A DNA stretch of 39,312 bases from Candidatus Oscillochloris fontis (lineage in GTDB: Bacteria > Chloroflexota > Chloroflexia > Chloroflexales > Chloroflexaceae): contig NZ_RYFD01000042.1 in assembly GCF_004138135.1 (NCBI RefSeq), positions 1 to 39,312 on the forward strand, given 5' to 3'. This document shows, piece by piece, positions 22,276 to 39,312 of the stretch. The notes below the pieces were generated by a model that saw only the letters and a program-made list of their open reading frames with translations, was not told where the DNA came from and searched no databases. The position numbers and the translations under genes were made by a program. The stretch's first letter is position 1, and every line of letters begins with the position of its first letter.

Positions 22276-23631
22276 TTATCCTGCGGTATCCATTGCAAGT
22301 GCGGTTGAGACATCGCGGCGGCTCAGACCCTTAAACTCCTGCACACTCACCCCGCGCAGGATAAGCACAGCCCCAACCATTAGTATGGCCTCGAAGCCAA
22401 AGATCATGGCATAGCCGATTTGGTAACTAATACCGATCTGCTCCATCAGTACCGTCACCAGTGCCCCACTAACGACATTAGCCAGCCCATTGCCCAGACC
22501 CTGCGCCATGCCCCACATGCCCATATAGAGCCCGGCCTGACCTGCGATAGTCATCTCCATCATCATCGAGAGGCTACCGACATTAAAGAAGCCAATCGCC
22601 AGACCCATCAGCAACAAAGCAGGGGTGATCAAACTAGCTTGATGGATGAAACTAGAGACAGCGATCACCCCCAACCCGATCGCAATCCCTACCGCACCAA
22701 TCGAGGCAATCGTCTTCTTGGCAACCGGAACAAAGTTGGAGAAGAGACCGATCCCGAACATACCCAACAGCGCCCCAGCGCCCCATGCCTGCTGGAAGGC
22801 CGCCGTCTGCTTCTGGGGCATATCAAAGACCTGCTTGCCAAACGGTTCGAGGATGGCATCCTGCAAGAAGATGCCCATAATCCCCAGCAACACATAGAAG
22901 AAGAAGTTACGGGCCTGGGTATTCTCACCCATGATACGCGCTGCCACCCGCAACGTCCCCAGCGGCGAATCGGTCTCAGCCGGTTGGGCGGCCATCAACT
23001 TGGCGTGTTCTTCCTTGCTGATACGCGACTCAACCCCGATTAGGCCAACAAACATGGTGCCCAACACCACAAACGGGGTGAGGTTATACAGACTCTGCAT
23101 CGCCTCTGGCGTATAGTGGGGCATGATCACCTGCGAGACAATTGAAGAGCCAATCCCACTAATGATCACCGCCGCCCACACCACCGCCACCGCGCCACCG
23201 CGTGACTTCTCAGGAATGACCTCGGCAATCAGGGCGTTGGAGGAACTGCCATTCATGGCCATCGCCATCCCGAAGAAGCCGATCAAGAAGAAGGCTTCGA
23301 CCGTCGCCACAAGGCTCTGCTCGCCCAAACCAACCGCAATCGAGGGCAGGAAGAGCATCGGAACCGAGGCCAAAAGCCCACTGAGCAGAATGTAGGGGCT
23401 ACGCCGGAAGCCCAGAATGGGATGCCGATCCGAAAGACGCCCCCAGTAGGGGTAGAGGAAAGAGATGAAGTGGTGCAAGCCGATCAGGGAGGTGACAATC
23501 ACCGCAATCGCTTTGAGATCCCCAATCGCAACGCGATTAAAGTTGAAGGTGAGCAGCGCAAACATCCAACCCGCCCCCACCCGCGTAATCGCTAGTTGGA
23601 TCGTCTTGATGATAATCCGCACAGCAGACAT
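22276..23631 (-). CDS. PucC/LhaA-type BCD family major facilitator
   Basis: 451 residues with about 12 membrane helices. Members of the bacteriochlorophyll-delivery (BCD/PucC/LhaA) branch of MFS transporters assemble light-harvesting complexes or move pigment. Characteristic pieces: VGAGWMFALLTFNFNRVAIGDL, YWGRLSDRHPILGFRRSPYI, AMNGSSSNALIAEVIPEKSRGGAVAV, and the late helix GLYMGMWGMAQGLGNGLANVVSGAL. The true start is the ATG at 23631, eight bases after AGAGAGG; the open frame upstream to 23799 is non-coding. First gene of the bch operon. Confidence 0.9.
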   Translation of the reverse strand: MSAVRIIIKTIQLAITRVGAGWMFALLTFNFNRVAIGDLKAIAVIVTSLIGLHHFISFLYPYWGRLSDRHPILGFRRSPYILLSGLLASVPMLFLPSIAVGLGEQSLVATVEAFFLIGFFGMAMAMNGSSSNALIAEVIPEKSRGGAVAVVWAAVIISGIGSSIVSQVIMPHYTPEAMQSLYNLTPFVVLGTMFVGLIGVESRISKEEHAKLMAAQPAETDSPLGTLRVAARIMGENTQARNFFFYVLLGIMGIFLQDAILEPFGKQVFDMPQKQTAAFQQAWGAGALLGMFGIGLFSNFVPVAKKTIASIGAVGIAIGLGVIAVSSFIHQASLITPALLLMGLAIGFFNVGSLSMMMEMTIAGQAGLYMGMWGMAQGLGNGLANVVSGALVTVLMEQIGISYQIGYAMIFGFEAILMVGAVLILRGVSVQEFKGLSRRDVSTALAMDTAG

Positions 23632-23883
23632 CGAGCTAACCTCTCTTCTTGATGACATATATGATGAAGATACAATCCAGAGGTGCAGTTGAGGGGGAAT
23701 GAAGATCCATAGCAGCGCCGTGGTGTTGCATACCACTACACTCGACATCCCCAGACAACACCGTCCTAGGCGATAGTGTACACAAGACCGCCGAATCACA
23801 GCGTACCGCCCCAGACAAGGGGATGGTGTGCGATGGGGAGCGCTGCGTCGCTTGCATTTCTATGGCAATTTGATCGTGGGCGG

Positions 23884-23912
23884 AGTATAGCATAGCCATC
23901 CAAAACCTTCAA
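23884..23912 (-). promoter_or_regulatory. Proximal promoter of the pucC-bch operon
   Basis: Minus strand: TTGAAG (23907-23912), 17 bases, TATACT (23884-23889) with an extended TG (TGCTATACT). It lies about 250 bases before the MFS start, leaving a long leader. Confidence 0.5.
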
Positions 23913-23939
23913 TATCTACAAAAGCCGTGCAAGTGCTTG

Positions 23940-23968
23940 ATACTAAAAAACTCGGTATGATATGTCAA
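23940..23968 (-). promoter_or_regulatory. Distal promoter of the pucC-bch operon
   Basis: Minus strand: TTGACA (23963-23968), 17 bases, TAGTAT (23940-23945). The -35 is perfect and the spacing ideal. Confidence 0.5.
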
Positions 23969-24372
23969 ATTTTATTTATGAGAGACAGATAAGAATTCCG
24001 TTTTAATGCCCTATTTTTGTTTTAGATTGACAGAATAACAAGATAGTTTAGCTATAAAAGCAATTCATTCGTAATGCGAAGGAAAAAGTTGCACAGGTTA
24101 GCGTTCCGGCGTCATATCCGGCATCCCCGACCGGCGTCCTTCGGATCGCCTTCGGCTCCCCTCAGGGTGACAACGCCCTTTCCGCCACGGGTGAGACCCG
24201 TTGGTTCCATGCATGTAATGTCTACAAACTATAGTAGAATAGCCCAACATTCTTCATCGCATACCGATACGTTCTGGTAAGACTCGGCACATATACTGCA
24301 AGGCCCATTGTCTCTTTGGAAACTCGTGATAGCGGTAACGAAGTAAGTAGTAGCCAACTGTAAGGCGCACCT

Positions 24373-27300
24373 ATGTCACCTCGCATGCGACATTCCCTGC
24401 CGATCTCATTGTTCCTCATCGCAATCATTGTCTTGACGCTGCTGCCAGTTGGTCTCGCGCTCGCCGCACCCACCAGCACGCTGGATGTCCGCATTAGTAC
24501 CAGCACCCCGGTGGTGGGAAGTGGCGACTGGGCGGTGATTAAGGTGGACTATAGTTGTTCGTCCATCTATAACACCACCTGTGATGATGTGGTGGTCTCG
24601 GTGCCAATTCCACCAGAACTGAGCCAGTTGGTACAGGATGTGCAGGTGCTCGATCTGAGTGGCGATACCGACGCAACCTACAGTCCTACTACGGCAACAT
24701 GGACGTTTACTGATGATATTGCGCCTGGTAGTGCCGGTACATTTACGCTGATGGTGCGCTTCCCACGCGGGGCCACGCCCGATGGAGCCACGGCTACCCT
24801 GCGTGCCTCGGCCACCAGCACCAGCGCCCCGCCGGTCACCTCCAAACCGCTTACCCTCACCGCCACCGCCGAACCACGCACCCGCGCCGATAAGCGCTTT
24901 GTGTCGGGTGGGGTGCTCGATATCAATACGGTTTATCGGGTTGAGGTGTGTGTACCCGGTACGGTTGGGGTGGTGGATGTTACCGATCTTGACATCCGCG
25001 ATACCTTGCCCGCAGGGGCTGAGTTTGTGAGTGCTACGGGTGGGGGTGTCTACAGTGCTGGCACCATCACCTGGGCTGACCGGGACATCATGGTTAGTGC
25101 GGGTGAATCTTGTGTGGGCTACGATGTCACGGTGCGCTTCCCCGATGCTACCTTTAATGTTGGTAACGAGATCCGCAATGACATGGAGGCCGATGTCACC
25201 TATAACAATGGCGCAACCGCCTTCCTGAGCGATTTTGATCTGCGGCTCATTCAGCCACCGACACCGAACCCTGGGTTTAGTAAGAATGGCCCGACTTCGG
25301 CATCTATTGGGGATATTGTCACCTATACCTTTACCTCCACCAATGCTGGTACCAGCCCGCTCGATGCGGGCCATACGATTACCGATCCGATCCCGGCTGA
25401 GTTGGAAGTGACCCGTATTACGGCGGGTACCCATAACCAAGCCCCTACGGTGATCCGGCTCCAGATTGAGTATCAGATTGATGGTACGACGACATGGAAC
25501 CCGGTGCCCGGTTCACCCTTTACCAGTGGCGCATGTTTCAATATCGTTCCTAACACCGGCGGCAGTTGTGCTGACATCACCCTCGGTGTGGGTGAGCGGA
25601 TTACCGCCCTGCGCTATACCTACCTCGATGCACTCCCCTACGGCTTTGCGGCCACCAATAACGGCTTTACTGCCGAGGTGATCAGTTCACCAATCAACCA
25701 GATTATTGTCAATACCGCCGATGCGCGCTATAGCTACAATGGCTATGAGATCCTGCGCCCGAGCGAGCGCCGTACCCGCGTGGTGGATAACTCTGATCCC
25801 GGTGCGCGGCCAACCCTCGGTAAGGCGGTCGATCCCAGTACGGTACAGTCAGGCGATGTTATCACCTATACCCTGACCCTGGTTAATAACAATAACAACT
25901 CCACGCCATTGATCAACCCCCAGATCTCCGACTTGTTGATCAACGAACTGCTCTATGTGGCGGGCAGCCAGGATATGATCCATGCGCCCGTTGGTACACC
26001 AGATCCTACATTTGAGCTTATTCCAAACTATAACGGTACCGGGAAAACATTGCTGAACTGGCAATGGGACAGCTACAGTCTGCCGCCGGGTGAAACAATC
26101 GAAATTGAGTTCCAGGCCCAGATTGCGCCCTATACCCCCGCGCAGTCGCTCAGTAATACCGCCTACCTCGCCGGTTGGGGCAACCAACCCGGCGATATTT
26201 GGATTGATAGTTGTACTGATAGTAGCCCCGATACCTACGACTTTGATAATGACGGGAATACCCAGGAGCAGATCTGTAGCTCGACGATTTCGAGCGTCAG
26301 CCTCGCTGCGGCAGCCAAAAGTGGCTCGCACAAGTTGGTGATGGGCCAACTCGATACCAAGTGGACCTACGATCCTGAGTTTGGCTATACCGTGCCCGGT
26401 GGAAGTGCCACCTACCAACTCACGATCACCAATACGGGCACCATCCCGATTGGGGAAATCACCCTGCTCGACATCTTGCCCTGGGTGGGTGACGTAGGTG
26501 TGCGTAGTTTTCAGCAAGACCGTGGCACCGAATGGCGGCCCTTCCTGGCCGAACCGATCACGGTTCCCTCCGGGGCGAGTGTCTTCTATAGCACCCAGAC
26601 CAACCCCTGCCGCGCCCCCGATCTGAGTGTTGACCCAACGGATGACTCGCCTGGCTGTACCGCGCCGGTCTGGAGTAGCACGCCACCCGCTGATATTACG
26701 ACGGTGCAGTCGTTTAAGGTTGAGTTTGGCGATCTGATCCTCATGCCCGAAGAGTCGGTGACGCTCACCGTCTCTATGCAGGCACCCTATAGCGATCCCG
26801 CCTTCCCTCCCGACCATAACCTGATTGCATGGAACTCGTTTGGCTACCGCGCACGGGCGATCAATTCGACCGAGTACCTGCTCTCCTCCGATCCACCGCG
26901 CGTCGGGATTAAGCGTGAAGCGTCCCAGCCTCCAGGGTATGGCAATTATGTCTGGTTGGATAACGACAAGGATGGGATCCAAGATGCTGGCGAACCCGGT
27001 ATCAATGGTGCCCGCGTAGACCTCTTCCTTGATGATGATGGTGTCCCCGGCCCGAGTGCGGGTGATACCTTCATTGGTACGAAAGTTACCGGGCCGGATG
27101 ATGCCGGTAATCCCGGTTACTACCTCTTCTCCGAGTCGTTTCCGTCCACCGATCCGCGTTACCCCGGCTACCTTGAACCCGGCGACTACTACGCCCAGTT
27201 TACCCCGCCGCTCGGCTATGGGCGCACGATTGCTGATCAGGGTGGTGATGGCACCGACTCCGATGCGAACCAGACCACTGGCCTGACGGCGGTTACTACC

Positions 27301-30300
27301 CTGGCAGCGGGTGAGATTGATCTGACCTGGGACGCTGGTGTCACCGCCAGCACCGCCGTGGGTAACTATGTCTGGATTGACCGTAATGCTAATGGTCTCC
27401 AAGACGAAGCCCCCGGCGATGGCGTCAATGGGGTGACGGTGCGCCTCTATACGAGTGGCGGTGTCCTCGTTGGTACCACCACCACCCATAACGATCCCTT
27501 TGGCCAGCCCGGTTACTATGTCTTCGATAACCTGACCCCTGGTAATTATTATGTCGAGTTTGTCGCACCGAGCGGCTTCACCTTCACCGACCAAAATAGC
27601 GGCAATGATGCCGCCGATAGTGATGCGAACCCCGCTAATGGGCGGACTGCGACCTTCACCCTGCTTGCCAACCAGTACGATCCCAACTGGGACGCCGGCT
27701 TGATCGTGACCGCCGGTACCCTGCAACTGGGCAATCTGGTCTGGCGCGATCTAGATAATAACGGGCGCTATGATCCGAGTGCGGGCGAGTCGGGCATCAA
27801 TGGCGTTACGGTCAGCCTCTACCGCGACAGTAACAACGATGGGGTGCCTGATCCCGGCGAACATGTGGGCGACACGACCACCAGTACCCACCTCGGTCAA
27901 CCCGGTTGGTACCAGTTTAGTAATCTGGAGGCTGGAAGCTATATTGCCGTCCTTGAGGCGAGTAACTTCGCCTTTGATGGCGCACTGCGCGATCTGCGAA
28001 CCAGCACCGGCAATGATCCCGCGCCCGACCCCGACACTGACATTGACCAGGACGATAATGGCTTTACTCAGGGTGCGCGGATCATCAGCCAACCGATTAC
28101 CCTCAGCGCCAATGGCGAACCGAACACCATTGTTGATGGTGATGATCGTAATGCTAACCAGACCCTCGACTTTGGTCTGATTGGTGGAGCCGCGCTGGGT
28201 AATCGAGTCTGGTTTGATACCGATAGTGATGGTGTTCAGGATGTTGGTGAGTTGGGCGTGGCCGGGATTACGGTTGAACTGCTCAACGACGTTGGCACCG
28301 TGCTCAAGACCACCACCACCAATGCCGATGGCATCTACGGCTTTGCCGACCTTGCCCCCGGCGATTATCGGGTGCGCTTCAGCGACCTGCCGAGTGGCCA
28401 CACCTTCACCAGCCTGAATAGTGGCAGCGATACGGGCCTCGACTCGGACGCCAATCCGGGTACCGGCACCACGGTGCTTACCACACTGGTTCTGAATGAG
28501 ACCGACCTGAGTTGGGATGCCGGTTTGGTCGCAGCCCTTTCCAGTTTGGGCAACCGGGCCTGGGACGACCTGGATCGGGATGGAATTCAGGATGCGGGCG
28601 AACCCGGCATCAATGGGGTGACGGCCTCGCTCTACCGTGCCGATGGTACCTTTGTGACCAGTACCGTTACCGCAAATGTTGCCGGTGAAGATGGTATCTA
28701 CGGCTTTAGCAACCTGCCCCCCGGCGACTACTATGTGGTCTTTAGTAATCCGCCCGCTGGCTATGCGATCAGCCCGATCAACACCGGCACTGATGACACC
28801 ATTGACAGCGATGCGGATCGGGTAACTGGGCAGACAGCGATCACCACGCTCCTTCCCGGTGAGAATGACCCGACCTGGGATCTGGGCATCTTCACCTATG
28901 CCAGTATTGGCGACCGAGTGTGGAATGACTATGACCGCAACGGGGTTCAGGATGGCGGCGAGAGTGGCGTGCCAAATGTGACGGTGCGGCTCTACCAGCC
29001 GGGGAGTAGCATCCCGCTTGCCAGCACTACCACCAACAGTAGTGGTAATTACAGCTTTAGCGGCCTGATCCCGGATCGTGAGTACTATGTCGAGTTTGTC
29101 ATGCCCTCTGGTTACAAGCCGACTGGCCAGAACGTAGGGGCAGACGATGGTATCGATTCGGATGCCAGCCTCTTAACCTTCCAGACCATTCCGACCGAGT
29201 TATCTACGGGTGAGAACGATATTACCTGGGACTTCGGTATCTACCAGACGGCCAGCATCAGTAATCTGGCCTGGCTCGATCTGGATGCCGATGGTGTTCA
29301 GGATGCCAACGAGACCAATGGCGTGCCGGGGGTGCAGGTCATCCTGTATAACCAGGTCGGCAGCGCGATTGATAGCACCGTCACCAATACGAGTGGTATC
29401 TACAACTTTTCGGGCCTCGAACCGGGGATCTATTCGCTGCGCTTCCTATTGCCAGACACCTACATCCTAAGCCCGCAGGATGCGGGTGGGAATGATGCCA
29501 CTGATTCGGATGCCGCGCCAGTCACCTTCACCACAATCCAGACCGAACTCATCCCCGGTGAGAATGACATGACCTGGGATATCGGCCTCTTCCAGCCCTC
29601 AGCGCTGGGCGACCGGGTCTGGCATGATGTGAACGGGAATGGTGTACAAGACCCCGGCGAGGATGGGATTGAGAATGTTGTCGTCACCCTCTACACTCCC
29701 GGCCCGGACGGGGTGATTGGTGGTGGCGATGATGTAGCGGTGGGGTCACCGGACACCACCGATGCGGACGGGAACTACCGCTTCGACAATCTCGCCCCCG
29801 GCACCTACTATGTGGTCTTTGGGGCAACCCCCGGCTATACCAATGTCTCGCCGGCCAACAGCCCAAGCGGGGATAGTGACAATAATAGCGACGCCGACCA
29901 AACAACACGCACCACCCCGCTGATCACGCTACCCTCTAGCACCAGCGACATGAGTTGGGACATGGGCGTCTACAACACCGTTGGGCTGGGTAATTATGTT
30001 TGGGTTGATACGAATGCCGACGGTATCCAGAATGAACCGGCCAGCAACGGCGTGAATGGGGTCACGGTTAGCCTCTACACCATCAACGGCATGTTCGTGG
30101 GTACGGACACAACCGAAAATGATGGCTTGGGCAACCCCGGTTACTACCTCTTCCCCGATCTAGCACCCGGTAACTACTACGTGGTCTTTAGCGACATCCC
30201 CGCCGATCATGTCTTTACCCAGCGCGATCAGGGCGGTGACAACGCGCTAGATAGTGATGTCCTCCAAGTGATCACCGGCCTTGGCGAGATCACCGGCGTC

Positions 30301-33300
30301 AGCAGCATGATCAGCCTGAGTTCCGGCCAACCCGACGACCTCACCTGGGATGCCGGTATTTTCCCGGTGATCAGTGTTGGTGATGTGGTGTGGCTGGACG
30401 CCAATGCGAATGGTATCCAAGACCCTGACGAGCGGGTGTATACCGATGTCAATGGCAATGGAAATATAGATGTGGGTGAGACACCCGGCGTGGCGGGGGT
30501 GCGGGTTGAACTCTACAACGATAGCGGCGATCTGGTTGATGTGACCTACACCAACCTGGATGGCAACTACCTCTTTGAGGGTCTCTTCCCCGACACCTAC
30601 CACATTGTCTTTAGCAATATTCCGGCGGGCTACCAGCGCAGCCCGGAGAATCGCGGCGCAGATGATGCCGTGGATAGCGATGCCGATAGTAGTTACACCA
30701 TCCCCGATTTCCCCACCCCGGCCACCGATCTGACCCGCGATATGGGGCTGTATGAGTTGGCCAGCATTGGCGATTATGTCTGGCATGATGTCAACGCCAA
30801 CGGTGTTCAGGAAGCGGGCGAGCCACCGATTGCCAATGTGAGCGTGCGCTTGGTGGGCACCGATGGCACCGGCGCGGCGGTTGATCTGAACACCACCACC
30901 GATAGCAACGGCTACTACCGCTTCCAGAATCTGGTGCCCGGTAACTACCACGTCGAGTTCACCATGCCCGCTGGCTATGATCGCGCCAGTGCGCCGGATC
31001 GTGGCACGGATAACACTCTGGATAGTGATATTGACACCACCACCCTGCGCACGCCCGACACCGAACTGCGCAGTGGTGAGAATGATCTGACCTGGGATGC
31101 TGGGTTCTACTCCGTCCTCCGGCTGGGCAACTTGGTCTGGCATGATCTGAATAACAATGGCCTCGCCGATGATGGTGCCACCGGCATTCCGAATGTCGAT
31201 GTGGTGCTGACCGGCACCGACGGCTTGGGAAATCTGGTCAACCTCACTGACACCACGGATAGCAACGGGTTGTATCTCTTCGAGAACCTTATGCCCGGCG
31301 AGTATGTGGTGACGATTCCGGCCAGCAACTTCAGTGGCGCAGGGGCACTTGCCGCAACCAGCAATCAGCCCGCCTACGTCAGCAGTAGCGGCACCAACGG
31401 GAGCCTGAGTGGCCCCTATGAACCCGCCGCCGACCCCGACAACAACACCGACAACAACGACAATGGTACCCTGAGTGGTAGTGCCGTGGTGGCTCAGCCG
31501 ATCACACTGCGCTCGCAGGATGAGCCACTTGTGGCGGTTGACACCGACGACAACAACGGCAACCTGACGGTGGACTTCGGCTTCTTCCGCCCGCTCAGCC
31601 TAGGCAATCTGGTCTGGAATGACCTGAATAACAATGGCCTAGTTGATGGTGGCGAGAGCGGCATTGATAATGTCACGGTTCAACTCTACCGCGACGACGG
31701 TGACAATACATACGATGCGGGCGATACCCTGATCACAACCGATACCACTAGTGGCGGTGGCCTCTACAACTTTGAGAATCTGGCCGGCGGCAACTACTTT
31801 GTGATCATCCCGGCCAGCAACTTTAGCGGAACCAACGCCCTAGCCGCGAGTGGCGGTATGGCCGCCTACCGCAGCAGCACCGGGATCAATGGCAGTGCCA
31901 CTGGCCCCTACGAGGCACCCAGCGCGAACGATCTGGACAACAACGATGACGGCACAACCATCGGGAGTGATGTTGTCTCGTTCATGGTCACGTTGAGTGA
32001 TGGTGGCGAGCCACCTAGTGGCGTGGATACTGATGGTCTCAATGGCAACCAGACCGTAGACTTCGGCTTCTTCCGCCCGGCCCGATTGGGTAATCTGGTC
32101 TGGCTTGACCGTGACGCCGACGGGATTCAGGATGGCGGCGATGAGACCGGCATCAATGGTGTTACCGTCACGCTGCTGGATAGCGCCGGAAGCCCGGTGG
32201 ACGGCGACCCGGTCGCACTAGGAACCCAAGCGATCACCACCGTAACGGCGGGCGGCGGCACCTATCAGTTCACCAATCTGGCTCCTGGCGATTACCGGGT
32301 GGGCTTCACGCCACCCGCCGACTACTACCATAGCCGCACCGGGGCGGGTACCGCCGCCACCGATAGCGACGCTGATCCGGCCACCGGCTGGACCGCAACC
32401 ACGACGCTCACCCCCGGCGAGAGTGATCAGACCTGGGATACCGGCCTCTACCAAAAAGTACGGTTGGGCAATCTGGTCTGGGATGATCTGAATAACAATG
32501 GCCTCGCCGATGATGGGGCCACCGGCATTGAAGATGTCGAGGTGGTACTCACCGGCACCGATGGCGCGGGAAATACGGTCAACCTCACTGATACCACTGA
32601 TAGTAACGGGTTGTATCTCTTCGACAACCTCGTGCCCGGTATCTATACCGTCACCATCCCGGCGATCAACTTTACCGGGGCCGGGGCGCTGGCACCCAGT
32701 GGAGATCGTCCCGCCTACCGCAGCAGTACCGGCACCAACGGGAGTGCAACGGGGACGTATCAAGTCGCGCCCGACCCAGATAACAACACCAACAATGATG
32801 ACAACGGCAGCACCAGCGGCAGTGATGTGGCGGCGCTTCCCGTCACGCTGCGCTCGCAGGATGAGCCGCTGGTGGCGGTTGATACCGATGATAACAACGG
32901 CAACCTGACAGTAGACTTCGGCTTCTTCCGTCCGCTCAGCCTGGGCAATCTGGTCTGGAATGATCTGGACAACGATAAGACCTTTGATAGCGGGACGGAA
33001 AACGGGATTAACGGGGTGAGGGTAGAACTCTACCTCGACACTGACAGCAATAACGTCTACACCGCTGGTACCGACACGCTCGTCACCTGGACGACAACCG
33101 ATGTCAACGGCAACTACCTCTTCGACAACCTCATCCCCGGCAACTATGTAGTGGTCATTCCAGCCACCAACTTTGGGGCGGGTGGGGCGCTGCGCTACTT
33201 CCGCAGCAGCGACAGTGGAGCAGCGACCGATAGCGCCACCGACCCCGACACCGGCGACACGAATAATGACGACAACGGCGTCGGCCCAAGTAGTGGTGTC

Positions 33301-36300
33301 GCTACGGCACTGGTAAGCAGTGGCGCGGTGACGCTCAGCCTGAATGGCGAGCCGATCAACGACGGCGACACCAACAGCAACAGCAACCTCGCGCTCGATT
33401 TCGGCTTCTACAGCCTGAGTGTGGGTAACTTGGTGTGGCGCGATGACGATAATGATGGTATCAAAGATGCTACTGAGACGGGCTTTGATGGGTTGACCGT
33501 CGTTCTCTACTATGATGCCGATAATGATGGCATCATTGACACCTCTGCGGAAACAATCCTTACCAGCAACGACGGCCACTACTTCTTCGGGGGACTGCGC
33601 AGCGGTGGCAACTACGAGATCCGCGTGACGACCCCTGGTGCCGATTGGGTTTCCAGCACAGGTGGTGCCAACGGAGTTGCGACTGGTCCCTACGAGCCAG
33701 GGCTTGACCCGGATGCCCCGGATAACGATGTAGTTGACAACAACGACAATGGAACCCAGCAGGCTGGTGCGAATACCGTCAGCAGCCCGATCTTCCAGGT
33801 CAACGTCGGCACAGCGCCAACCACCGAGAGCGACTTGGTTATGCCCACCGGCGTAACCGACCCGGCGGCGAACAATAGCTCCAACCTGAGCATTGACTTC
33901 GGCCTCTTCAACCATGCCCGCATGGGTGATTTGGTCTGGATTGATACCAACGGTAATGGGGTGCAGGATGCGAGCGAGACGACGGGTGTAGCCGGAATTA
34001 CGGTGACGCTGTATGACAGTGGTGGCACTGAGATCGCTCATACAGACACGGATTCAAACGGCCTCTACAGCTTCAGCTACCTGAATCCGGGTGACTACTA
34101 TGTCATCTTCGATCTCGGCGACATCTCACCCGACTTTGCAGTAAGCCCGGCCAATGCAGGTGGCACCGCCGCGACCAACAGCGACGCCAGCCAGACCACC
34201 GGCCAGACCAGCACCTTCACGCTAACCTACGGCGATAACGACACCGACTGGGACATGGGCATCTACCCACGGGTGAGCTTGGGCAACTTGATCTGGGACG
34301 ATCTTGACAATGATGGTCTCGCAGATGTGGGTGAGCCAGGGATTCCCAATGTACAGGTTGATCTCTACAACGACACCAACAGCAATGGCACCTACGACGC
34401 AGGTACTGACACGTTTGTAGTGAGCCAGGACACCAATGGCACCGGCAACTACCTCTTCACCCGGCTGGAGCAGGGCGACTACCTCGTGGTCATCCCGGCG
34501 AGCGAGTTTGCCAGCGGTGGGCCGCTCTACCGCTACCGCAGCAGCACGGGTCAAAATGGACTCGGTATTAATGTCTACGAGCCAGCCCCCGACCCGGATG
34601 ATGGCGTCGGTGCGCCTACGGCCAACAATACCAACAATGACGATAACGGTACCGACCATGGGGATGGTTACACCTTCACACGGGCGATCTCGCTCAACCC
34701 CAGCTATGAACCGACTAATGACGGTGACACCGACCCGAACACCAACCTGACCCTAGATCTGGGTTTCTTCCAGAACCTGAACCTGGGCAACTTGGTGTGG
34801 GAAGATACGGATAATAACGGTATCTATGATAGTGGCGAACCGCTGCTGGATAACGTGCTGGTTGAACTCTACATGGACGATGGTGATGGCAGTTACGACG
34901 CGGGCGACAGCCTGATCAATACCACCACCACCGGTATCAATGGTATCTACAACTTCGATGACCTCATTCCCGGCAACTACATCGTCGTACTACCGGCCAG
35001 CAACTTCAATGCTGGTGGACGGCTAGAGGCCACTGGTGGCCTCGCGGCCTACCGCAGCAGCACGGGCGTTAATGGGGTTGCCACTGGCCCGTATGAGGGT
35101 GCGGGCATCGCCGATCCCGACAACGATCTGGACAACCGCGATGACGGTACCACCATCGGTAGTGTCGTGGCCAGCCTGCCGATCACACTGGCTCGCAATC
35201 TGGAGCCACCGGTTGTTGATGATGGCGACGGTACCAACGGCAATCAGACCGTAGACTTCGGCCTCTTCCGCCCGGCCAGCCTGGGGGATCGGGTCTGGAA
35301 CGATCTGAACGCGAACGGTATCCAGGATGCGGGTGAAGTGGGGATTACGGGTGTCATCGTGAGCCTGCTTGATGGCAGCGGTAACCCCGTCCTTGATGCG
35401 GCGAGTAATCCGATTACCGCGACGACCGATGGCACCGGTGCCTATCGCTTTGATAATCTCATCCCCGGTACCTATAGCGTCAGTTTTACCAAACCGGCCA
35501 CCTACATCTCTACACTGGTGGATCAGGGGGCTGATGCTGCTGCCGATAGCGATGCCGACCGCAGCACGGGTGTGGCGACGGGCACCACCACACTGGTTGA
35601 GGGGCAACATGATCCGAACTGGGACGCGGGCTTCTACCGACCGATCAGTATCGGGAATCAGGTCTGGTACGACACTAACAATAATAATGCACGTGGTGGA
35701 ACTGAAGTAGGCATCAATGGGGTGCAGGTTGAACTCTTCTATGATGCAAATAATGATGGGAGTATCAGCGGGGCTGAAACTACCCCGGTCGCGGTGACGA
35801 CCACCGCTGCCGATGGCACCTACCTCTTCACCACCCGCAACAACACCAACTCAGAACTACTCAACCCTGGCACCTACCGCGTGGGTATCCCGGCGAGCCA
35901 GTTTGAGCCGGTGGCGGGTGTGCTACGCGGTTACTACAGCAGCCGCGTCACGATGACGAACGCTGGAGTCTTGACCGAGACCGGCCCGCCCGATCCCGAC
36001 ACCAATGCGAGCGACACGGACGACAATGGTGCCCGCCAGACCAGCGGCTTCTACAACGGCGGCGTGCTGAGCCTGCCGGTGACGATTGTGGCTGGCAGCG
36101 AGCCAATTAACGAGAACCCCGACGTTGACCCGAATACCGCCGAGCGCCCGGATAACAGCGACAACCAGACGGTGGACTTCGGGTTCTACACGGCGAGTGT
36201 GGGCAATATCGTCTGGGACGACAATGGTAGTGGAACCCTCGCCGATGGTCTCCGTAACGGAGCAGAGTCGGGGATAGCCAACGTGCGCGTGCGCCTGTTT

Positions 36301-39300
36301 GCCCAGAATGGCAGCACCGAGATCCCGGTTGGCCCGGATGGGTTGCTGGGTACCAGCGATGATGCCACGGGCGGGATGCTGACCGATCCTGCCGGCAACT
36401 ACAGCTTCGGGCGCTTGCCTGGGGGAAACTACCGCGTGCAGATCGAGCTGCCGACGGGATATGTGAGTACCCGCGATACGGCGCAGAGCGCTACGCCGAG
36501 CGGCAATACCGATAACGATGATAACGGAATCGGGAGTGACCAGACGGCCACCACGGTGATGAGTAATGAATTCACGTTGGTGCCGGGGGGCGAGCCAAGT
36601 GTTGATAATAACACGGGCAGTAGCGACGATCCCACGATTGACTTTGGTATCGTGCGCGACTATTCGCTGGGCAACCGCGTCTGGGAAGACCTCGACAATG
36701 ATGGCCTGTTGAACAATGGTGAGATCGGGCTGGACGGGGTCGTTGTGCGGCTCTACATGGCCGATGGCACTACCCGCGCCAGCCACATCACCGGTGTGCA
36801 GGTGGCCGATCAGACCACAATAAATGGTGGCTACTATCGCTTCGACAACCTGCCCGCAGGCGACTACATTGTCGAGGTGTTGGCGGCCAACTTCATCAAT
36901 AACAATCCGCTGCGTGGCTACTTCAGCAGCACCGGGGCGGGCCAAGAGGCTGACCCGGATGGTGGCAGCGATAGCAACGATAATGGCCTAGACACCTCGG
37001 TGGCCGGGGCGACCCGGAGCGCGGTGGTGACGTTGGGTGAGGGGAGCGGCATCCTTGAGCCAACTGGCGATAATGACCCCGTCACCAACCCGCTCGACAG
37101 CAGCGAAGCGCCCGATGCTCAGTCAAACCGCACCGTGGATTTCGGCTTTGTGCCGATCTACTCGCTGGGCAACCGGGTCTGGCATGACACCAATAACAAC
37201 GGGCTGATGGATGGTACCGAAACCGGCATCGAAGATGTCACCGTGCGGCTCTACGAGGCCGATGGAACGACACAGGCACGTGATATCCTAGGTAATCTGG
37301 TGGCCAACCAGGATACCGACGCCAACGGCTACTACCGCTTCGATAACCTGCTGGCGGGTGACTACATCGTGGAGATCGTAGACACCAACTTTACTGGTAC
37401 TGGTGCATTGGTGACCTACGTCAGCAGCAGCGGCGCGGAGACTGACCCCAATAGCGACGGCGACCGCAACGACAATGGCCTGGACATCCCGGTGCTTGGG
37501 GCCATCCAGAGTGGCGTGGTGACGCTCGGTGGCAACGCCGAACCAAGCACCGACAACGATCCGGCGACCAACCCGGAAGTCGGGGAATCGCGTAATGACC
37601 GCTCGAACCGCACGCTGGACTTCGGGTTCTACCAGCCGGTGAGTATCGGTAATCGGGTCTGGTACGACACGGATAACAGCCGCACCTTCGATGTCGGCGA
37701 ACAAGGCATCAATGGTGTGCGCGTCGAACTCTTCTTCGATGCGGATGGCAACGGCAGCATTGGGGCAGGCGAGACCAGCCCGGTGGCGGTGGCCTTCACT
37801 GCCGCTGATGGCACCTACCTCTTCACCCAACTGACCGATAGTGACGGTAACCCGCTGGCGACAGCGCAACTGCTGCGCCCCGGCACCTATGTGGTGGGTA
37901 TCCCGGCGAGCGAGTTGACGGGCGCACTGCGTGGCCTCTTCAGCAGCGGGACGACCATTGACCTCAGTGGTGCCCGCAGTGAGACCGCGCCCGCCGATCC
38001 CGATGGAACACCGGATGTTGACGGCGATGACAACGGGCAACTCCAGATCAGCGGCTTCTACAATGGGGGCGTGCTGAGTCTGCCGCTGACGGTGGAGGCG
38101 CTGAACCAGCTAACCGGTGAGAACCCGGACAGCGACCCCAACCCCAGCTATCGCCCGGATAGCAGCGACAACCAGACCGTGGACTTCGGGTTCTATGGGA
38201 TGAGCCTGGGCAACTTGGTGTGGCTGGATGACGGTAACGGTGGTGGTACCGCCAACGACGGCATCCGCAACGGCAATGAAGCGGGGATTACCGGGGTCAC
38301 CGTGCGGCTGCTCGCCAGTGACGGCACGGTGCTGCAAACCACCGCGACCGACGCCAATGGGCGCTACCTCTTCACCGGCTTGGCCGAGGGAACCTATTCT
38401 GTTAGCGTAGCGATCCCCAACGGCCTCCAGTCGAGCCGCGACCCGGCACAGGCGGGGACACCCAATGCGCTCGATAATGACGACAATGGTGTTATTGTCA
38501 ATCCGACCACGATGCAGAGCGTCCCGGTGATCCTGGATGCAGGCGCAGCCCCGACGGGTGAGATCGATCAAGGCGTGACGACCGGGGCGGGTATGGGCAA
38601 CCCGGTGCAGACTGACAACCCCAATACCCTGGATGAGAACTCTAACCTGCACGTGGACTTCGGCTTTGTGCCGCTGGACTGGGGCGACTTGCCCGCGCCG
38701 TATGCGACCCTGAACGCCAACAATGGCCCGCGCCACGGCCTGACCACCGGCCTCCAGATTGGCGCAACGGTGGACACCGAGACTGACGGCCAGCCCAGCG
38801 CTGCCGCTGATGGCGACGGTGCGGACGAGGATGGCGTCAGCTTCCCGACCTTCTACACCGGGTTGCCCGCCAACGTCACCGTGAATGTCACCAACACCAC
38901 CGGACGTGACGCGACCCTGTACGGCTTCATGGACTTCAACGGCGATGGCGACTTTGCCGACGCAGGGGAGACGGTCACGCTGGCCATCCCCGATAGCACC
39001 ACCGGCAACCAGACCCTCACCTTCAATGTACCGAATGATGCGGTGGTGGGCAGCCAACTGGGTGCGCGCTTCCGCCTGAGCAGTGATCCGAGCCTGACCG
39101 CGACTGGCCCGGCCAGTGACGGTGAGGTTGAGGACTACCTGATTACCATCACCCCGACCTACAGCCTGGGCAACCGGGTCTGGCACGACACCAATAACAA
39201 CGGGCTGATGGACAGCGGCGAAGCCGGCATTGAAGACGTGACCGTGCGCCTGCTCGACAGCGCGGGCAACCCCGTCACCAATCTGACCGGGATGGGCACC

Positions 39301-39312
39301 GCAACCACCGAC
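24373..39312 (+). CDS. Giant secreted SdrD_B-repeat surface protein (5' part, runs off the window)
   Basis: One frame is open for 4,980 codons from the ATG at 24373 to the last base; I read it line by line and met no stop, so the protein is larger than about 4,980 residues. AAGG lies seven bases before the ATG and an in-frame TAA at 24361 closes the upstream side. Residues 1 to ~31 form a signal peptide (PISLFLIAIIVLTLLPVGLALA, cut near LALA-AP). About 300-850 hold DUF11/Ig-like domains (GDIVTYTFTSTNAG, GDVITYTLTLVNNN, GSATYQLTITNTG). Residues 856 to ~4765 are 27 SdrD_B-like repeats, then a GEVED domain and a 28th repeat. Probably an extracellular adhesin or sheath/filament scaffold stabilised by calcium. 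The C-terminal anchor is not visible. The bch operon is divergent. Confidence 0.92.
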   Translation, partial: MSPRMRHSLPISLFLIAIIVLTLLPVGLALAAPTSTLDVRISTSTPVVGSGDWAVIKVDYSCSSIYNTTCDDVVVSVPIPPELSQLVQDVQVLDLSGDTDATYSPTTATWTFTDDIAPGSAGTFTLMVRFPRGATPDGATATLRASATSTSAPPVTSKPLTLTATAEPRTRADKRFVSGGVLDINTVYRVEVCVPGTVGVVDVTDLDIRDTLPAGAEFVSATGGGVYSAGTITWADRDIMVSAGESCVGYDVTVRFPDATFNVGNEIRNDMEADVTYNNGATAFLSDFDLRLIQPPTPNPGFSKNGPTSASIGDIVTYTFTSTNAGTSPLDAGHTITDPIPAELEVTRITAGTHNQAPTVIRLQIEYQIDGTTTWNPVPGSPFTSGACFNIVPNTGGSCADITLGVGERITALRYTYLDALPYGFAATNNGFTAEVISSPINQIIVNTADARYSYNGYEILRPSERRTRVVDNSDPGARPTLGKAVDPSTVQSGDVITYTLTLVNNNNNSTPLINPQISDLLINELLYVAGSQDMIHAPVGTPDPTFELIPNYNGTGKTLLNWQWDSYSLPPGETIEIEFQAQIAPYTPAQSLSNTAYLAGWGNQPGDIWIDSCTDSSPDTYDFDNDGNTQEQICSSTISSVSLAAAAKSGSHKLVMGQLDTKWTYDPEFGYTVPGGSATYQLTITNTGTIPIGEITLLDILPWVGDVGVRSFQQDRGTEWRPFLAEPITVPSGASVFYSTQTNPCRAPDLSVDPTDDSPGCTAPVWSSTPPADITTVQSFKVEFGDLILMPEESVTLTVSMQAPYSDPAFPPDHNLIAWNSFGYRARAINSTEYLLSSDPPRVGIKREASQPPGYGNYVWLDNDKDGIQDAGEPGINGARVDLFLDDDGVPGPSAGDTFIGTKVTGPDDAGNPGYYLFSESFPSTDPRYPGYLEPGDYYAQFTPPLGYGRTIADQGGDGTDSDANQTTGLTAVTTLAAGEIDLTWDAGVTASTAVGNYVWIDRNANGLQDEAPGDGVNGVTVRLYTSGGVLVGTTTTHNDPFGQPGYYVFDNLTPGNYYVEFVAPSGFTFTDQNSGNDAADSDANPANGRTATFTLLANQYDPNWDAGLIVTAGTLQLGNLVWRDLDNNGRYDPSAGESGINGVTVSLYRDSNNDGVPDPGEHVGDTTTSTHLGQPGWYQFSNLEAGSYIAVLEASNFAFDGALRDLRTSTGNDPAPDPDTDIDQDDNGFTQGARIISQPITLSANGEPNTIVDGDDRNANQTLDFGLIGGAALGNRVWFDTDSDGVQDVGELGVAGITVELLNDVGTVLKTTTTNADGIYGFADLAPGDYRVRFSDLPSGHTFTSLNSGSDTGLDSDANPGTGTTVLTTLVLNETDLSWDAGLVAALSSLGNRAWDDLDRDGIQDAGEPGINGVTASLYRADGTFVTSTVTANVAGEDGIYGFSNLPPGDYYVVFSNPPAGYAISPINTGTDDTIDSDADRVTGQTAITTLLPGENDPTWDLGIFTYASIGDRVWNDYDRNGVQDGGESGVPNVTVRLYQPGSSIPLASTTTNSSGNYSFSGLIPDREYYVEFVMPSGYKPTGQNVGADDGIDSDASLLTFQTIPTELSTGENDITWDFGIYQTASISNLAWLDLDADGVQDANETNGVPGVQVILYNQVGSAIDSTVTNTSGIYNFSGLEPGIYSLRFLLPDTYILSPQDAGGNDATDSDAAPVTFTTIQTELIPGENDMTWDIGLFQPSALGDRVWHDVNGNGVQDPGEDGIENVVVTLYTPGPDGVIGGGDDVAVGSPDTTDADGNYRFDNLAPGTYYVVFGATPGYTNVSPANSPSGDSDNNSDADQTTRTTPLITLPSSTSDMSWDMGVYNTVGLGNYVWVDTNADGIQNEPASNGVNGVTVSLYTINGMFVGTDTTENDGLGNPGYYLFPDLAPGNYYVVFSDIPADHVFTQRDQGGDNALDSDVLQVITGLGEITGVSSMISLSSGQPDDLTWDAGIFPVISVGDVVWLDANANGIQDPDERVYTDVNGNGNIDVGETPGVAGVRVELYNDSGDLVDVTYTNLDGNYLFEGLFPDTYHIVFSNIPAGYQRSPENRGADDAVDSDADSSYTIPDFPTPATDLTRDMGLYELASIGDYVWHDVNANGVQEAGEPPIANVSVRLVGTDGTGAAVDLNTTTDSNGYYRFQNLVPGNYHVEFTMPAGYDRASAPDRGTDNTLDSDIDTTTLRTPDTELRSGENDLTWDAGFYSVLRLGNLVWHDLNNNGLADDGATGIPNVDVVLTGTDGLGNLVNLTDTTDSNGLYLFENLMPGEYVVTIPASNFSGAGALAATSNQPAYVSSSGTNGSLSGPYEPAADPDNNTDNNDNGTLSGSAVVAQPITLRSQDEPLVAVDTDDNNGNLTVDFGFFRPLSLGNLVWNDLNNNGLVDGGESGIDNVTVQLYRDDGDNTYDAGDTLITTDTTSGGGLYNFENLAGGNYFVIIPASNFSGTNALAASGGMAAYRSSTGINGSATGPYEAPSANDLDNNDDGTTIGSDVVSFMVTLSDGGEPPSGVDTDGLNGNQTVDFGFFRPARLGNLVWLDRDADGIQDGGDETGINGVTVTLLDSAGSPVDGDPVALGTQAITTVTAGGGTYQFTNLAPGDYRVGFTPPADYYHSRTGAGTAATDSDADPATGWTATTTLTPGESDQTWDTGLYQKVRLGNLVWDDLNNNGLADDGATGIEDVEVVLTGTDGAGNTVNLTDTTDSNGLYLFDNLVPGIYTVTIPAINFTGAGALAPSGDRPAYRSSTGTNGSATGTYQVAPDPDNNTNNDDNGSTSGSDVAALPVTLRSQDEPLVAVDTDDNNGNLTVDFGFFRPLSLGNLVWNDLDNDKTFDSGTENGINGVRVELYLDTDSNNVYTAGTDTLVTWTTTDVNGNYLFDNLIPGNYVVVIPATNFGAGGALRYFRSSDSGAATDSATDPDTGDTNNDDNGVGPSSGVATALVSSGAVTLSLNGEPINDGDTNSNSNLALDFGFYSLSVGNLVWRDDDNDGIKDATETGFDGLTVVLYYDADNDGIIDTSAETILTSNDGHYFFGGLRSGGNYEIRVTTPGADWVSSTGGANGVATGPYEPGLDPDAPDNDVVDNNDNGTQQAGANTVSSPIFQVNVGTAPTTESDLVMPTGVTDPAANNSSNLSIDFGLFNHARMGDLVWIDTNGNGVQDASETTGVAGITVTLYDSGGTEIAHTDTDSNGLYSFSYLNPGDYYVIFDLGDISPDFAVSPANAGGTAATNSDASQTTGQTSTFTLTYGDNDTDWDMGIYPRVSLGNLIWDDLDNDGLADVGEPGIPNVQVDLYNDTNSNGTYDAGTDTFVVSQDTNGTGNYLFTRLEQGDYLVVIPASEFASGGPLYRYRSSTGQNGLGINVYEPAPDPDDGVGAPTANNTNNDDNGTDHGDGYTFTRAISLNPSYEPTNDGDTDPNTNLTLDLGFFQNLNLGNLVWEDTDNNGIYDSGEPLLDNVLVELYMDDGDGSYDAGDSLINTTTTGINGIYNFDDLIPGNYIVVLPASNFNAGGRLEATGGLAAYRSSTGVNGVATGPYEGAGIADPDNDLDNRDDGTTIGSVVASLPITLARNLEPPVVDDGDGTNGNQTVDFGLFRPASLGDRVWNDLNANGIQDAGEVGITGVIVSLLDGSGNPVLDAASNPITATTDGTGAYRFDNLIPGTYSVSFTKPATYISTLVDQGADAAADSDADRSTGVATGTTTLVEGQHDPNWDAGFYRPISIGNQVWYDTNNNNARGGTEVGINGVQVELFYDANNDGSISGAETTPVAVTTTAADGTYLFTTRNNTNSELLNPGTYRVGIPASQFEPVAGVLRGYYSSRVTMTNAGVLTETGPPDPDTNASDTDDNGARQTSGFYNGGVLSLPVTIVAGSEPINENPDVDPNTAERPDNSDNQTVDFGFYTASVGNIVWDDNGSGTLADGLRNGAESGIANVRVRLFAQNGSTEIPVGPDGLLGTSDDATGGMLTDPAGNYSFGRLPGGNYRVQIELPTGYVSTRDTAQSATPSGNTDNDDNGIGSDQTATTVMSNEFTLVPGGEPSVDNNTGSSDDPTIDFGIVRDYSLGNRVWEDLDNDGLLNNGEIGLDGVVVRLYMADGTTRASHITGVQVADQTTINGGYYRFDNLPAGDYIVEVLAANFINNNPLRGYFSSTGAGQEADPDGGSDSNDNGLDTSVAGATRSAVVTLGEGSGILEPTGDNDPVTNPLDSSEAPDAQSNRTVDFGFVPIYSLGNRVWHDTNNNGLMDGTETGIEDVTVRLYEADGTTQARDILGNLVANQDTDANGYYRFDNLLAGDYIVEIVDTNFTGTGALVTYVSSSGAETDPNSDGDRNDNGLDIPVLGAIQSGVVTLGGNAEPSTDNDPATNPEVGESRNDRSNRTLDFGFYQPVSIGNRVWYDTDNSRTFDVGEQGINGVRVELFFDADGNGSIGAGETSPVAVAFTAADGTYLFTQLTDSDGNPLATAQLLRPGTYVVGIPASELTGALRGLFSSGTTIDLSGARSETAPADPDGTPDVDGDDNGQLQISGFYNGGVLSLPLTVEALNQLTGENPDSDPNPSYRPDSSDNQTVDFGFYGMSLGNLVWLDDGNGGGTANDGIRNGNEAGITGVTVRLLASDGTVLQTTATDANGRYLFTGLAEGTYSVSVAIPNGLQSSRDPAQAGTPNALDNDDNGVIVNPTTMQSVPVILDAGAAPTGEIDQGVTTGAGMGNPVQTDNPNTLDENSNLHVDFGFVPLDWGDLPAPYATLNANNGPRHGLTTGLQIGATVDTETDGQPSAAADGDGADEDGVSFPTFYTGLPANVTVNVTNTTGRDATLYGFMDFNGDGDFADAGETVTLAIPDSTTGNQTLTFNVPNDAVVGSQLGARFRLSSDPSLTATGPASDGEVEDYLITITPTYSLGNRVWHDTNNNGLMDSGEAGIEDVTVRLLDSAGNPVTNLTGMGTATTD
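31123..31599 (+). repeat. Duplicated repeat block, copy 1 (unit 12)
   Basis: Exactly 477 bp, the same length as copy 2 at 32464-32940. Long stretches agree at the DNA level, for example GGCCTCGCCGATGATGG and CTGCGCTCGCAGGATGAGCC. The first ~20 bases of unit 13 are also repeated at the start of unit 16. Confidence 0.8.
32464..32940 (+). repeat. Duplicated repeat block, copy 2 (unit 15)
   Basis: Partner of 31123-31599, offset by 1,341 bp. Differences are mainly third-position changes and small substitutions in the TGPYE region; the C-terminal 100 bp are almost unchanged. Confidence 0.8.
38677..39153 (+). other. GEVED domain in the giant protein
   Basis: Starts DWGDLPAPYATLNANNGPRH, continues TDGQPSAAADGDGADEDGV and GFMDFNGDGDFADAGE, and ends GARFRLSSDP...SDGEVEDYLITI. 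That closing GEVEDY is the signature of the GEVED domain of bacterial surface proteins. It interrupts the repeat array before unit 28. Confidence 0.85.
39166..39312 (+). repeat. 28th SdrD_B-like unit, cut by the window edge
   Basis: LGNRVWHDTNNNGLMDSGEA continues in frame to the last base. At its start it is nearly identical to unit 25 (37165), including CACCAATAACAACGGGCTGA in both, suggesting recent copying. Confidence 0.85.

Follow-up and report, generated by a model that had tools for sequence, protein, structure and literature searches.

The window analysed here, 39,312 bases in length, is the whole of contig C129 from a draft genome of 4.46 Mb in 139 contigs. On its minus strand lie genes that Pfam assigns to the PucC, BCHF, zinc-dehydrogenase and NifH families, together with two Mg-chelatase-like genes; the zinc-dehydrogenase and NifH-family genes appear to occupy the positions of bchC and bchX, respectively. 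To the right of all of these, a single plus-strand reading frame extends from an ATG to the edge of the contig (Table 1) and is free of in-frame stops throughout in the assembled sequence, as had been claimed in an earlier note made from the sequence alone. Since the window is a complete contig, it is the assembly that truncates this frame. The note also held that lists of open reading frames miss the gene, which is true of tools that discard unterminated frames and not of others; the antisense frames within it are probably shadows. Rfam and tRNA scans of the whole window were empty, and Tandem Repeats Finder reported no array in the DNA of the giant gene. For the intergenic stretch 24105-24200, searches of 246 loci with an exact 30-base probe gave a single hit, in locus L032, which is the window, and hence no further copy; a probe of 34 bases found none inside the window, nor was an inverted repeat seen in 23800-24400.

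Table 1. Features of the giant gene and its divergent neighbour in the window.
Feature	Position	Strand	Basis and remarks
PucC-family gene, divergent left neighbour	22276..23799	-	Pfam; beside the giant gene in G003, G005, G032 and G035
AAGG, plausible ribosome-binding site	24362..24365	+	By reading; 7 bases 5' of the ATG
Giant gene	24373..39312	+	ATG start; 4,980 codons, no stop before the contig edge
Signal peptide region, about residues 1-33	24373..24471	+	Sequence reading; aligns in relatives
N-terminal head, Ig/DUF11-like domain chain to about residue 854 (about 820 residues)	24472..26934	+	Pfam, NCBIfam, structure model, Foldseek
27 complete SdrD_B repeats, from residue 856	26938..38544	+	Pfam, regular expression
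GEVED domain, residues 4849-4925	38917..39147	+	Pfam, 49.6 bits against a cut-off of 24.4
28th SdrD_B repeat, truncated at the contig edge	39166..39312	+	Regular expression, Pfam

The 826 N-terminal residues of the frame, its head, are 64-65% identical to sequences in G003 and G005, two genomes of the window's own genus with frames of 4,489 and 6,426 codons, which makes chance or sequencing error untenable as an explanation. The ribosome site and signal peptide proposed in the note are both credible: the AAGG motif is plausibly placed, and the N-terminus reads as a signal peptide (a judgement made by reading, with no trained predictor and no computed cleavage site), with a helix at residues 13-22 in the structure model. 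The view that a phototrophic filament secretes this giant repeat protein likewise holds up, as bacteriochlorophyll genes adjoin the gene and its relatives carry the names Oscillochloris, Chloroploca and Chloroflexus. The giant is genuine, a secreted protein some 6,000 residues long or longer and mostly made of one repeated domain.

The 3' end of the gene almost certainly lies on contig C8 of the same genome. This contig starts inside a repeat, in frame, and continues for 972 residues to a stop, with one cut and six complete SdrD_B repeats followed by an FN3-like domain and a tail; the expectation of more repeats past the edge was thus borne out, and the visible total, to which a gap must be added, comes to 5,952 residues. 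The part of the protein encoded in the window has 10 cysteines, and the C8 part has none. Beyond the stop on C8 are a response regulator/kinase gene, an RmlD-like gene and a glycosyltransferase gene (named by reading). In G003, G005, G032 and G035, tblastn places the PucC, BchF, dehydrogenase and NifH-family genes on one flank of the giant, at 53-90% identity. On the opposite flank it finds C8's kinase and RmlD genes, at 48-72% identity, with the glycosyltransferase next in three of the four and, in G005, beyond the stretch examined. Because one locus holds both sets of neighbours in four genomes, C8 can be joined to the gene of the window. In G045 and G023 no such neighbours were seen in the DNA surrounding the giant; the G023 gene is near a contig end.

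It could be argued instead that C8 carries a second, paralogous repeat gene and that the gene of the window ends elsewhere, since C129 runs to about position 43 of the SdrD_B profile and C8 begins at position 34, an overlap in repeat register that rules out a direct join. This overlap implies that at least part of one repeat is missing between the contigs; the gap is roughly estimated at 100 to 1,050 residues, or about 1,045 when mapped on G005, a figure that is rough because the repeat units differ. Two observations make a paralogue very improbable, however. SdrD_B matches in this genome are confined to four contigs, C129, C8, C136 and C132 (the last below cut-off), among which C8 alone begins within a strong repeat, and both neighbour sets share a single locus in the four relatives.

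With C8 as its end, the giant contains at least 33 SdrD_B domains. The family (PF17210) was matched by 29 stretches in the window part (1,940.7 bits against a cut-off of 29.7) and by seven in the C8 part (574.8 bits), both parts being members by score. DUF11, GEVED and SdrD_B, the three families named in the earlier note, all score above their Pfam cut-offs, and its figure of 27 complete repeats was reproduced with a regular expression, which counts 28 starts, 27 of them complete and one cut by the edge. Repeat lengths in the window fall into two classes, of about 115-140 and 155-190 residues. Among 31 units compared, the median identity was 42% and the maximum 79%, values that indicate an old array. 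An acidic loop of the form W-D-x-N-x-N-G recurs in these 31 units, with W and the first D in 31, [DN] and [DNS] in 30 each and G in 27, although the regular expression itself demands D, and W or V, in this loop. B repeats of the Staphylococcus aureus protein SdrD bind Ca2+, and the stalk formed by the domains of the giant is probably Ca2+-stiffened.

The head is less easily characterized. DUF11 was found in two stretches of the window part (28.0 bits against a cut-off of 24.6), and an RrgB isopeptide-type domain reached 33.6 bits against an NCBIfam cut-off of 30, its best stretch spanning residues 480-599. The structure model of the head is weak (mean pLDDT 67, pTM 0.35), and Foldseek searches with it returned many Ig-chain proteins, antigen I/II C-terminal domains first, at low TM-scores; a PDB profile search with the head gave no matches. 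The predicted fold is taken only as an Ig-like chain and nothing more specific. A scan of genome contigs with the head found at least 42 loci. Outside Chloroflexales, among the matches listed, the head aligns, often partially, at 23-41% identity with proteins of Saprospiraceae, Methylococcaceae, Hassallia, Ca. Albibeggiatoa, Caldilineaceae, Spirosoma-type bacteria, Streptomyces and others. The frames seen there have 0 to 6 B-repeat starts, in contrast to the long array of the giant, and where their C-termini are visible they differ too: by reading, L120 has a T9SS-like end, L143 an LPxTG-like end with a helix, and L145 and L146 another helix-type end, while the remaining frames show no recognisable end or run past the locus. 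This is suggestive of head-domain relatives carrying, in some frames, the C-terminal ends typical of their lineages.

Closer relatives are similar in architecture and very different in length. The head search matched 24 of 61 genomes at E <= 0.001, several of them weakly. Giants terminated by a stop have 5,995 residues in G035, 5,546 in G032, 11,826 in G023, 3,623 in G045 and 6,411 in G005, with start positions taken mechanically. In three of the four relatives with conserved neighbours the giant occupies one open frame; in the draft genome G003 it is divided into two, of 4,489 and 2,073 residues (G003:C1:113349-133068, minus strand), reflecting either a real break or an assembly error. All five complete relatives and the C-terminal piece from G003 have the same FN3-like domain followed by an end of the form [IV]x[LVM]P[LI][VI]xR. 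Near-identical repeat units occur in G023 (16 pairs above 90% identity) and in G035 (two pairs identical to two decimals), which argues that stalk length changes by duplication of domains. The longest frame, that of Candidatus Chloroploca mongolica (G023:C103:397-35877, minus strand), has a very regular run of 116/117-residue repeats close to its end, and 14 DUF11 stretches were found in the 2,743-residue part of it that was scanned.

The likeness of the giant to SdrD is considerable. Both have B repeats of the same family with the same acidic loop, and both run from a signal peptide through an Ig-like head to a B-repeat stalk. SdrD is also the best match in the PDB, by sequence for a single repeat (E 6.8e-27) and by fold for the C-terminal fragment, the SdrD_B part of whose model superposes on SdrD 4jdz with an rmsd of 2.4 A over 120-122 columns. 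SdrD itself, however, has few B repeats. The giant has at least 33, a different head and a YLP-box end, and it is without LPXTG; the SD-dipeptide region of SdrD was not noticed in it on reading. That the giant is a sortase-anchored MSCRAMM like SdrD is accordingly a reading to which we give hardly any credence, despite its SdrD_B repeats and the sortase genes of the genome. Its window part falls well short of the NCBIfam whole-protein models for the MSCRAMMs SdrC/SdrD (NF000535, 928.2 bits against 1,700; the SdrD model NF012181, 1,059.4 against 2,500), neither the window part nor the C8 part contains an LP.T[GASN] motif, no hydrophobic stretch occurs in the last 35 residues, and the C-terminus on C8 contradicts such anchoring. 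Sortase-family genes number four in this genome, and each of 21 genomes searched has at least one, so that sortase anchoring is available to the organism, but the giant lacks the signal for it. A second comparison is with the ice adhesin of Marinomonas, which leaves the cell by type I export. One report describes that 1.5-MDa protein as a giant repeat adhesin with many Ca2+-dependent Ig-like repeats (PMC4083281); the principle of its stalk is the same, but the repeat is different.

None of the C-terminal anchors named in the earlier note (a sorting signal, a T9SS-like domain or a membrane helix) was found, and the giant has a YLP-box tail instead. No T9SS domain was detected by Pfam in the C8 part or by NCBIfam in the last 233 residues, and the exosortase gene PF09721 is absent from all 21 genomes searched, this one included. 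Anchoring by LPXTG, by exosortase/PEP-CTERM and by T9SS was ruled out by the missing motif, gene and domain. The protein ends in RIYLPLVVR and, with C8 as the 3' end, on which this result depends, matches NF050076, the "YLP-box putative sorting motif" (cut-off 15), at 16.0 bits with the last 233 residues and 20.8 bits with the last 30; the last 30 residues also reach 16.8 bits with NF053834 (cut-off 10). The giant is thus above the cut-offs of both YLP-box families, but these models span only the last 10-11 residues and five of the six relatives' giants are under the NF050076 cut-off. Only the giant of G005 exceeds it; that of G045 scores 12.6 against 15, and no match is given by those of G003, G023 and the two Chloroflexus-type genomes G035 and G032, whose giants end in VPIIQR. 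All six nevertheless have P at position -5, R at -1 and hydrophobic residues in a comparable arrangement. In a model of the last 233 residues, the FN3-like domain is followed by two final blocks with the tail, which is poorly ordered there (mean pLDDT 51 and 55).

Similar tails recur elsewhere in this genome. Searched with a wide DNA pattern, the tail turns up in 22 places against five for a reversed control, and 20 of the 22, the giant included, are at a true stop, all ending frames of at least 100 residues. With a narrow pattern there are 20 occurrences, ten of them directly before a stop (binomial 6e-9 with 3/64). Ends like that of the giant are carried by 19 further proteins, of which 16 of the 18 with a visible N-terminus have a signal-peptide-like start. 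Fifteen of the 19 were scanned and include a choice-of-anchor protein, peptidases C11, C39, M4 and M23, amidases, FG-GAP, RCC1 and beta-propeller proteins and a glutamine cyclotransferase. Over four genomes, signal-peptide-like starts were seen in 42 of 49 tail proteins with a visible N-terminus, against 20 of 114 other frames (frames of at least 150 residues from the same stretches); by genome the figures are 15/17, 13/13, 7/9 and 7/10 for tail proteins and 8/27, 3/20, 3/23 and 6/44 for the others. All of these signal-peptide calls were made with our own hydrophobicity rules in place of a trained predictor, and some seem to err in one direction or the other, L210 being missed and L217 and L219 doubtful. 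Coverage extended to all 19 non-giant true-stop places in this genome (one frame of 100 residues being under the size limit), 14 of 17 narrow places in G005 (15 among those listed, one being the giant), all nine places in G042 and 16 of 17 in G035, where the other is the giant. The four genomes gave 53 tails, of which NF050076 matches 38 and NF053834 31 at E <= 10. Because the tail proteins were picked by pattern, there is some circularity in the conservation of their last seven positions; position -8, selected only through a loose alternative of the regular expression, is V or I in 37 of the 53.

The narrow pattern was also counted across genomes. In 24 genomes of the order it occurs 124 times and its reversed control 20 times; in the other 227 genomes the figures are 67 and 83, which leaves the tail without support from this pattern as a phylum-wide signal. 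The single exception among the 227 is G071, with 10 against 1 (6 against 8 with a looser pattern). Genus g9, probably Chloroflexus, has 6 against 5 with the narrow pattern and 80 against 32 with the looser one, which in the window's own genome gives only 12 matches against seven controls. In genus g20 (G038, G041, G047, G050 and G053), which we take to be possibly Herpetosiphon, the pattern is rarer than its control, opposite to most of the order (3 against 7 narrow, 19 against 60 looser), and the eight places in G053 include one tail frame, without a signal peptide.

The reading that we favour, with a probability of roughly 70%, is that the giant is a Sec-exported surface rod, probably stiffened by Ca2+ and held at the cell by its tail; its anatomy, its conservation, its linkage and the tail with the other proteins that bear it are established by the analysis, and from there we infer its surface location, its Ca2+ binding, its adhesive or sheath role and the function of its tail. 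The signal peptide would direct the protein through Sec, the head of Ig/DUF11-like domains would form the tip of the rod, and the SdrD_B domains with their acidic loops, at least 33 in number, would make up a long stalk, probably Ca2+-stiffened, with the FN3-like domain closing the chain. The flexible C-terminal YLP-box (RIYLPLVVR-COOH), itself a putative motif, may then be read by an export or retention factor that keeps the giant at the envelope, and gain and loss of whole domains would alter the length of the stalk. The role in a sheath, in adhesion or in gliding proposed in the earlier note is a possible one, consistent with this anatomy.

The main competitor is a released protein of a sheath or fibrillar layer, the rods building an extracellular matrix and the tail serving export and not anchoring. 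The presence of enzymes among the tail proteins of this genome (the C11, C39, M4 and M23 peptidases and the amidases) would suit it, as would the dense fibrillar layer of the mesophilic relative Ca. Viridilinea mediisalina, which, in a cryo-ET study, meshes with a planar density some 72 nm away from its outer layer (PMC7332563). That species may or may not have the gene, however, and no lattice-forming domain was recognised in the giant, so we regard release as unlikely, if still a serious contender. The same study reports an outer-membrane-like layer in two of three Chloroflexota strains and states that no key LPS, Lol or bamA genes were found (PMC7332563). A wider conjecture, more speculative still, is that phototrophic Chloroflexales and some relatives use the YLP-box as a C-terminal sorting code that needs no helix, and that their atypical envelope has a machine, so far undescribed, to read it; the giant, a domain-duplicating rod encoded beside photosynthesis genes, would be its largest structural client and would build an outer fibrillar coat or bind the cells of the filament together.

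Among the open-licence papers listed, none came up that treats this protein, SdrD in Chloroflexus or a bacterial YLP-box. Its repeats, its giant size and its tail were each known singly; what is new is their combination, the conserved place and the size range. It belongs, as a very large representative, to the SdrD_B surface proteins and differs from the rest in the YLP-box end, in the head and in its conserved genomic site. The giant is conserved, occurs in Chloroflexus-type genomes too and has an end like the YLP-box; it therefore gives the study of envelope retention in Chloroflexota a big, readily detected client on which the action of the tail can be tested. A single order, moreover, spans stalks of 3,623 to 11,826 residues that vary by whole domains.

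The other two contigs with SdrD_B matches have features of their own. On C132 (locus L030, 1-3848), neighbouring genes have the YLP-box ends VYLPIIRK and VYLPLIRR; the first starts beyond the contig edge and the second has an M23 peptidase domain. On C136 (locus L029, 2697-7454, minus strand), a frame of 1,585 residues contains two SdrD_B stretches and, by reading, DUF11-like repeats; the genes beside it resemble, again by reading, a CpaB/CpaF pilus-type cluster.
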